From positions 1-33,120 of the forward strand of contig CAIZIQ010000199.1 in assembly GCA_903933015.1 (NCBI GenBank): a stretch of DNA of 33,120 nucleotides, in the 5' to 3' direction. A program made the translations under genes and the position numbers. The DNA comes from an uncultured Spartobacteria bacterium (GTDB taxonomy: Bacteria > Verrucomicrobiota > Verrucomicrobiia > Chthoniobacterales > UBA6821). This document shows, in pieces, positions 2,577 through 30,103 of this stretch. The notes under the pieces are model-generated. The model searched no databases, had not been told where the DNA came from, and saw only the letters and a list, made by a program, of their open reading frames with translations. Each line of letters starts with the position of its first letter. Position 1 is the stretch's first letter.

Positions 2577-2671
2577 AGTCTGAACAAGTGACAGGGAAGT
2601 CACGCGGAAGACTACGACAAAGTAGTAGCCCAAAGGTTGCCACAGCTTTCCTGGGAGAGAAGTGGCATCAA
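2577..2671 (+). repeat. Copy 1 of a two-hairpin dispersed intergenic element (candidate structured RNA)
   Basis: Aligned by eye with 29887-29981: shared AGTCTGAAC, GCGGAAGAC, GCCCAAAGG, CACAGCTT, AAGTG and TCAA blocks; two hairpins at the same positions in both copies. Strand is assigned arbitrarily. Confidence 0.6.
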
Positions 2672-16692: not shown

Positions 16693-16936
16693 AATACCGT
16701 CGCCCCAAGGGATCGAGCTTGCTTCTTTTGCGCCTCTGAACTTCCAAGCACTTGAAGAAGGCTTGTAAGGGATGGATTGTGTCTGGCCTAAAGCCTGCAG
16801 CCTAAACTTGCTAGCGCCTAGCTCGACAGTCTCTCCTGCGAGTCGTGCTGCCTGCTTTCCCCTATCACTTTCCTTTTCACTTCTCTCCCTGCTCCCTACA
16901 GCCTAATCGCCTTAAAACCTATCCTCCCTGGATCAC

Positions 16937-22793: not shown

Positions 22794-22881
22794 TCAAAGG
22801 TTCCGCTTGGGCCCCCCTCAGGCCTATAATCTGAAACCCTAAAGCCGAACTCCCTTTCACTTTCATTCTCACTCCATCTTT

Positions 22882-24106: not shown

Positions 24107-24200
24107 CCATAAAAGACGCCTACCCAGTCAGCTTTTGTGGTTAATAATCAATCTAGTTTTTCCTATCTTCCTGTTTTCCAGATTAAGTTCTCAGTTTTTG

Positions 24201-27396: not shown

Positions 27397-27689
27397 GGCT
27401 CCTTCTATCGGGGAGAGCCAAACAGGATCTCATCGAGATCTGGGAGTATATCGCTTCGCATGATGAAGAGGCAGCCGATCAATACATCGATCACTTGAGG
27501 CGACGCGCCATGGAGTTGATAACTCACCCTGAGCTTGGTCGTAGCCGAGACGACATCCATCACGGTATTCGCAGTTTGCTTTCCAGAAACCACCTTCTTT
27601 TTTACCGGATCCGAGCCAATGAGATTCAGATCCTAAGAATCCTCCATGGCAGCATGGATCTTCCAAACCAAGACTTTCCTACAGCCTAA
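27393..27689 (+). CDS. RelE/ParE-family toxin
   Basis: MRLLLSGRAKQDLIEIWEYIASHDEEAADQYIDHLRRRAMELITHPELGRSRDDIHHGIRSLLSRNHLLFYRI is a ParE-family pattern. Confidence 0.92.
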   Translation: MRLLLSGRAKQDLIEIWEYIASHDEEAADQYIDHLRRRAMELITHPELGRSRDDIHHGIRSLLSRNHLLFYRIRANEIQILRILHGSMDLPNQDFPTA

Positions 27690-27728
27690 TAGCCTAAAGC
27701 CTAAACCCCTCTCACTTTCACTTTCCCC
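27679..27728 (+). repeat. CCTAAA-type plus CACTTTC-type degenerate intergenic repeat preceding rfbB
   Basis: cctacagcctaatagcctaaagcctaaacccctctcactttcactttcccc directly before the ATG. Confidence 0.6.
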
Positions 27729-28793: not shown

Positions 28794-28926
28794 GGTCTAG
28801 GTTCTGGGTTGTTAGGAATTAGGGTTTAATAAAACAGCTTCATTAGATAGCTGAAGCCTACTAATGACATACAGCCTAGAAAACTAATACCTAATCTCTC
28901 CGGTTCCTCTCCCCTATAGCCTAATC

Positions 28927-28945
28927 TCCTAACACCTAAACCCCT
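28927..28945 (+). repeat. 19-nt exact repeat, copy 1 (TCCTAACACCTAAACCCCT)
   Basis: Identical to 30079-30097; ends 6 nt before the GTG at 28952. Confidence 0.85.
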
Positions 28946-29719: not shown

Positions 29720-29737
29720 GCACGCAGTGCTTAGAGG
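29713..29737. other. 11-bp perfect hairpin overlapping the permease stop codon
   Basis: CCTCTAAGCAC gca GTGCTTAGAGG; the TAA stop is 29717-29719; no T-tract follows. Confidence 0.8.
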
Positions 29738-29757
29738 AGGTATTTAGGAGTTAGGCT

Positions 29758-30092
29758 TTTAGGCATTAGGAATTTATACTTTAGGTAATAAAATTTGCGA
29801 CCACACGAAACTCAAAGCCTTTGAATTGGTTGGCAGAATAGCTTCGGAAGCATGTCCCACCTTAAAATCTGATAAATAATTTATGGAGTCTGAACCAAGA
29901 TTTTTGGGAAAAAGCGCGGAAGACAACGATGGAATCGTTGCCCAAAGGGCGGCACAGCTTGTGGGCAACAAGTGCCGTCAAAAAGTGCTTGGATCGCTCA
30001 TTCGCTCACAACGACCTAAAGCCTAATTGCCTACAGTCTAAACAGCTTGCTCCATTGCGCCCCTCCTACAGTCTAAATTCCTAACACCTAAA
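29758..30092. repeat. Inverted-repeat-bounded spacer between the permease and ATPase genes
   Basis: 29758-29776 TTTAGGCATTAGGAATTTA and 30074-30092 TAAATTCCTAACACCTAAA are inverted copies, 17/19 matching. Confidence 0.7.
29887..29981 (+). repeat. Copy 2 of the two-hairpin dispersed intergenic element (candidate structured RNA)
   Basis: See 2577-2671; hairpin 1 CAACGA tggaa TCGTTG, hairpin 2 CGGCA-CAG-CTTGT gggca ACAAG-TGCCG. Strand is assigned arbitrarily. Confidence 0.6.
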
Positions 30093-30097
30093 CCCCT
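30079..30097 (+). repeat. 19-nt exact repeat, copy 2 (TCCTAACACCTAAACCCCT)
   Basis: Identical to 28927-28945; ends 6 nt before the GTG at 30104. Confidence 0.85.
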
Positions 30098-30103
30098 AAC
30101 CAA

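Follow-up and report, generated by a model that had tools for sequence, protein, structure and literature searches.

GTAG-type REPs and REPINs, with their RAYT, are small intergenic palindromes that are present in many copies and keep their structure, and an HUH Y1 enzyme acting in trans is the presumed mobiliser of REPs (PMC3733652, PMC8266576). A GTAG REP measures 20–40 bp and has one hairpin and a GTAG tag. The CGTC REPs, for which no dedicated transposase is known (PMC3733652), are built of one 8–9 bp stem, a 4–5 nt loop, an unpaired CGTC tag and a CCA tail. IS200/IS605 elements lack terminal inverted repeats, generate no target duplication, integrate on the 3′ side of a tetra- or pentanucleotide and carry enzyme-bound hairpins (PMC7290912, PMC8266576); their ends-only derivatives, the palindrome-associated transposable elements (PATEs), have subterminal hairpins, no inverted repeats and no target duplication (PMC7290912). 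Classical MITEs are defined by terminal inverted repeats and a target duplication. Most repeats of the Bcr1, NEMIS/Correia, ERIC and BOX type likewise end in inverted repeats and duplicate their target. Several of the latter are named in PMC3733652.

The window analysed here is the whole of contig C199 (33,120 bp), part of a 2.33-Mb draft genome in 335 contigs. Positions 2585–2671 and 29895–29981 are old copies of an 87-nt non-coding element with four hairpins. The family to which they belong is real and REP/PATE-like, a variant for which the open literature gave no description and whose mechanism we in part infer. In contrast to a GTAG REP, the element measures 84–92 nt and has four hairpins in place of one; the unpaired GTAG at the hairpin foot is absent (the 5′ foot is CCAAG and the 3′ end TCAA), and a RAYT gene flanked by repeats, another REP feature, was not encountered in 16 genomes of the genus. 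As in CGTC REPs, the motif is present, the base of the last hairpin (P4) reading CCGTC in most copies, but P4 is a stem of 11 pairs interrupted by a CNG bulge and closed by a GGGA loop, the CG of CGTC is paired, and there are three extra hairpins. The likeness to PATEs extends to the hairpins, with P1 starting about 4 nt from the 5′ end and P4 ending 4 nt before the 3′ end, and to insertion at a [GC]AA motif with no duplication, although an AA ambiguity remains; unlike PATEs, no parental IS with these ends was found, and the element is far shorter than the ~271-nt example (PMC7290912). Neither of the two marks of a classical MITE could be demonstrated. The element can be likened to Bcr1, NEMIS/Correia, ERIC and BOX, by description and not by sequence, as a dispersed, intergenic, foldable and lineage-specific repeat.

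Copy number and range of the family

The earlier note had described a pair of 95-nt look-alikes, and both stretches are present where it placed them. Their 33-nt block agrees at 26/33 positions, against 20/33 for the next best of the other + strand positions and 18/33 for the best on the − strand. The element proper, however, is 87 nt long in each, and AGTCTGAA, which had been taken as a shared part, is flank on the target side and is not constant among other copies (Table 1).

Table 1. Element copies, their hairpins and flanking features in the window
Feature	Positions	Strand	Basis
Left flank (target side) of copy 1, AGTCTGAA, GAA insertion motif at its end	2577–2584	+	Left-flank counts
Element copy 1, 87 nt, (C)CAAG to TCAA	2585–2671	+	R1 (84.4 bits, E 8.4e-17 in own genome); ends from 112 copies and empty sites
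P1 of copy 1, GTGAC AGGGAA GTCAC	2588–2603	+	Sequence; family covariation
P2 of copy 1 (hairpin 1 of the earlier note)	2612–2628	+	Sequence; family covariation
P3 of copy 1, short, CCC AAA GG, weakly supported	2629–2637	+	Sequence
P4 of copy 1, CNG bulge, GGGA loop (hairpin 2 of the earlier note)	2638–2667	+	Sequence; covariation
TCAA 3′ end of copy 1	2668–2671	+	Judged element-encoded
Element copy 2, 87 nt	29895–29981	+	R1 (88.8 bits, E 7.5e-18 in own genome)
P1 of copy 2, weak, T-A rich, TTTT/AAAA core	29899–29915	+	Sequence
P2 of copy 2	29924–29940	+	Sequence
P3 of copy 2, CCC AAA GGG	29941–29949	+	Sequence
P4 of copy 2	29950–29977	+	Sequence
TCAA 3′ end of copy 2	29978–29981	+	Sequence
384-bp spacer with copy 2, between ABC-exporter permease gene and its ATPase gene (roles inferred)	29720–30103		Spacer comparison

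The pair turned out to belong to a large family. With copy 2 as query, blastn detected more copies elsewhere in the same genome, and an alignment of 13 copies with four hairpins (A1) gave the covariance model R1. Searching with such a model, as the earlier note had proposed, returned copies far beyond chance in the own genome (16 at E<1e-6) and in 15 of the 16 genus genomes (E≤0.001). Both window copies are in the 13-sequence seed of R1, and the copies of the other 14 matching genus genomes lie outside it. Copy number per genome ranged from 2 (G005) through 16 (own genome), 46 (G004) and 49 (G009) to at least 114 in G007, a lower limit, as all 114 scored candidates matched.

Outside the genus, none of six genomes of the sister genus had an R1 match. 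A second model, run on 214 genomes of the order, brought up weak relatives, most of them in a single genus of another family (best 1.1e-8) and others in the sister genus (best 6.7e-5); one such distant match (L071) has the same plan, with GGG-type hairpin loops and a GAATCAA end. In GTDB, the exact core occurs almost only in freshwater Spartobacteria/Chthoniobacterales MAGs. Copies were also seen in unrelated bins, namely L123 and L124 (JAPJNB, 'Akkermansiaceae') and L116 ('Armatimonadetes'); those of JAPJNB are nearly identical to the copies of a Chthoniobacterales MAG from the same study, and both sets of bin matches are probably mis-binned contigs. Rfam gave no match at the gathering threshold or even at E<1, in agreement with the view that this is no known riboswitch class. 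The phage and plasmid collections had no match to the element, and the open literature, to which the search was confined, gave no description of the family.

Folding of the element

The consensus reads 5′ CCAAG / P1 / CGCGGAAGA / P2 / P3 / P4 / TCAA 3′. P1 has five covarying pairs, usually one extra, and a GGGA loop; P2 has six pairs, seven in many copies; P3 is CCC...GGG; and P4 has 5 + 6 pairs flanking the CNG bulge, with a GGGA loop. The two hairpins first described are part of four: the 5′ hairpin P1, with its GGGA-type loop, and the short CCC-AAA-GGG hairpin had been missed. The compensatory pairs noted at that time (T2613-A2627 vs. A29925-T29939, T2638-A2667 vs. C29950-G29977, and C2640-G2665 vs. 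G29952-C29975) are found in the sequence, and P1 of copies 1 and 2 also differs by compensatory changes.

Among 109 distinct copies, 23 of the 25 pairs had changed on both sides (5/5 in P1, 6/6 in P2 and all in P4), 95.5% of cells were paired vs. 75.5% after shuffling (0/500 shuffles), and covariation was 0.458 vs. 0.132 shuffled. Pairing fell to 33–47% in slid controls. P3, which hardly varies, is the least supported helix. The 109-copy counts lean towards the model, because this alignment was fitted to it; in a 13-copy MAFFT alignment made without structure, 17/25 pairs had changed on both sides (0/500 shuffles). Selection on the structure of the four-hairpin element, as the earlier note had suggested, is strongly supported by the covariation in both alignments. 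In the stems, G-T cells outnumbered A-C cells (67 vs. 22; ratio 3.0, 95% interval 1.9–5.1), and therefore the + strand as written is the strand under selection. The excess, in which G-T is only about 2% of cells, fits RNA and single-stranded DNA alike and was counted as not decisive.

Ends and insertion sites

Comparison of empty with filled sites, orthologous or paralogous, revealed clean insertions of about 86–100 nt with at most AA ambiguous. The empty site CCAAGCGAA/GCTG of L065 (the slash marks the junction) reads CCAAGTGAA/CCAAG...GTTCAA/GCTG when filled in L066; the site GGGACGAA/GGCATC is empty in L114 and filled in L122; and in a second repeat family the site CGCCTTCAA/AAATCAG is empty in L075, L093 and L109 (twice) and filled in L104. 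The ends were analysed on copies with an intact TCAA, a demand passed by 118 of 149 distinct model matches. In the left flanks of 112 copies, G or C (101/112) was followed by A (103/112) and A (104/112), that is, [GC]AA; no strict motif directly follows the element on the right in the same copies.

Where the left flank is not AA (e.g., GTCGAGAG or AGAGTGAG) the right end is still TCAA, which favours a TCAA that belongs to the element over one made by duplication of AA, bearing in mind that a TCAA end was required; the ambiguity of a 2-bp AA duplication remains. The consensus ends have no terminal inverted repeats, and no target duplication is demonstrable at the empty sites or in the flanks of the 112 copies. 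An IS91-type target (GAAC/CAAG) was weighed because the junction reads GAACCAAG, and was rejected: the empty sites read GAAG or CAAA, and therefore the junction C belongs to the element. Some insertions lie directly downstream of a TCA, either that of another repeat or that of a further copy (L114, L146); the latter arrangement fits self-targeting.

Other repeats share these intergenic regions. A ~200-nt repeat hosts a subtype of the element, mostly with a GTTCAA end, in L007, L047, L066, L088, L095 and L144, and is without it in L065. The element often lies directly after the CAGGAA end of a third short dispersed repeat, TTCCTGTTTTCCTGAGTTCCAGATTAAATT (L091, L022, L095), found in the window at 2801–2853 and 24160–24189 and, in near-identical copies, on other contigs of this genome and in the genus. 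Just upstream of copy 1, positions 2458–2540 form another dispersed repeat with dozens of matches in the genus at about 73–85% identity (blastn). The gene before copy 1 (624–2371) has homologues throughout the genus, and in the own genome several close paralogues (78–86%). Degenerate arrays of 7–8 bp units (CCTAAAG/TTAGGCT like) occupy many intergenic stretches (16872–16921, 22823–22870, 27678–27725, 28870–28939, 29750–29785 and 30017–30100), and in related genomes the element is bordered by arrays of this kind that are built of other units (CCTGAAA, TTATGAA, GTCGAGG).

In G010 (L178) and G006 (L179) the gene pair around copy 2 is only 39 and 35 bp apart, respectively, which indicates that the stretch holding copy 2 together with TTAGG-like arrays is additional here; the comparison bears on the element plus the arrays and not on the element by itself. 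In G004 a separate copy, in the opposite orientation, precedes the same ATPase gene by about 60 bp. Copies of the own genome have a median identity of 70%, and the closest pair (92%) has common flanks, so that recent activity in this genome is unlikely; judged from this divergence, they would be relics of an element now inactive here. In JAPJNA (G012), identical copies with different flanks occur in one genome, which points to recent activity in that species.

Competing explanations and candidate mobiliser

Of the two readings offered in the earlier note, structured RNA or foldable mobile DNA, the empty sites and the dispersal uphold the latter. A functional RNA, either cis-regulator or small RNA, that is selected and merely multicopy would account for the very strong covariation and for the G-T excess with selection on the + strand, yet we regard it as improbable. 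The element is unbiased in orientation to neighbouring genes (10 same, 13 opposite, 13 convergent and 8 divergent, by crude gene calls; 44 copies overlap an ORF of ≥80 aa, often a chance ORF), copies are nested in other repeats with empty sites, and sister species range from 2 to 114 or more copies; the small G-T share also counts against an RNA, single-stranded DNA likewise favours G-T over A-C, and covariance-model selection leans the same way. An RNA intermediate, be it reverse-transcribed, SINE-like or reverse-spliced, would agree with single-strand selection and with the lack of duplication and inverted repeats, but the ends are uniform, with no tail or 5′ truncation pattern, and this route of dispersal is very unlikely. 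The coding alternative, a decayed or micro-ORF repeat, had been raised by the frame similarity of the two window copies and can be virtually dismissed: the lengths of the copies are spread over the three classes modulo 3 (43/23/36), stop codons interrupt five of six frames in 20–53% of copies and the sixth in every copy, and the changes follow base pairs.

The reading as a classical MITE, with a DDE transposase that leaves a short target duplication, is as improbable as a functional RNA. Direct repeats of 6–8 bp border some copies (e.g., GGGATGAA at L060), and there is a 7-bp offset signal; against this, the consensus ends are not inverted repeats, the empty sites are clean, and the repeat signal is mostly due to insertion into 7-bp arrays. 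The apparent 7-bp signal tracks tandem arrays in the flanks and recurs at 14 and 21, a weak excess remains in flanks scored non-periodic (2.36 vs. 1.86), and isolated direct repeats of 6 or more were close to the chance level (4/112 copies vs. 1.26 ± 1.17).

Dispersal, structure, ends, target motif and clean insertion are established by the comparisons above. The absence of inverted repeats and duplication, the short fixed left motif and the terminal hairpins are marks of HUH single-strand transposition (PMC7290912, PMC8266576). We consider it rather likely that the element is mobile but non-autonomous, with hairpins at its ends, and that it is moved in trans, probably by an HUH enzyme of the IS200/IS605 or REP type. 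In the mechanism that we propose, one DNA strand would fold into four hairpins in a row, the first and last about 4 nt from the ends, and would be inserted after a short [G/C]AA motif with no target duplication, bringing its own TCAA as the 3′ end; this TCAA would be a new target, which would explain the head-to-tail copies. A trans-acting enzyme, for which an HUH single-strand transposase of the IS200/IS605 or REP (RAYT) type is the likeliest candidate, would recognise the hairpins, so that pairing rather than sequence would be kept. The single-stranded DNA substrate and the HUH enzyme are thus presumed from the marks of the element.

Of the 16 genus genomes, 14, the own one included, had no PF01797 (Y1 transposase) match above the cut-off; the remaining two contained three genes in all (two in G007 and one in G004), none with an element within 1.5 kb. 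These RAYT-like genes (L154 and L156 in G007, L155 in G004) lie in the genomes that rank first and third in copy number; at L154 and L156 the element does not flank the gene, and clear REP hairpins are lacking. The own genome and 0.88 Mb of loci yielded no autonomous parent with split ends; in the loci, candidates had short separations or were a 1.3-kb pair whose 3′ partner is part of a complete copy; at L105, where two copies seemingly surround a 2.8-kb unit, ordinary genes lie between. Draft MAGs tend to lose multicopy IS. In an IS200/IS605-derived element, guide tetranucleotides complementary to the cleavage sites would stand 5′ of the hairpins; by eye, neither CCAA before P1 nor (A)GGG before P4 has evident complementarity to GAA or TCAA. 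With no linked Y1 gene, no parent and no clear guide pairing, the element is said to work like a PATE or REP and is not called one. A new class, in which a folded single strand owes its spread to a mobiliser other than a Y1 transposase or a known MITE partner and offers its own 3′ end as a new target, is unlikely.

Whichever enzyme moves it, the REP/PATE-like family is well delimited, with strong covariation, precise ends, empty sites and a very uneven copy number among sister species, and these traits make the movement of transposase-less palindromic repeats, such as the CGTC REPs, directly testable. The family accounts for part of the intergenic landscape and some of the assembly breaks in freshwater Spartobacteria.
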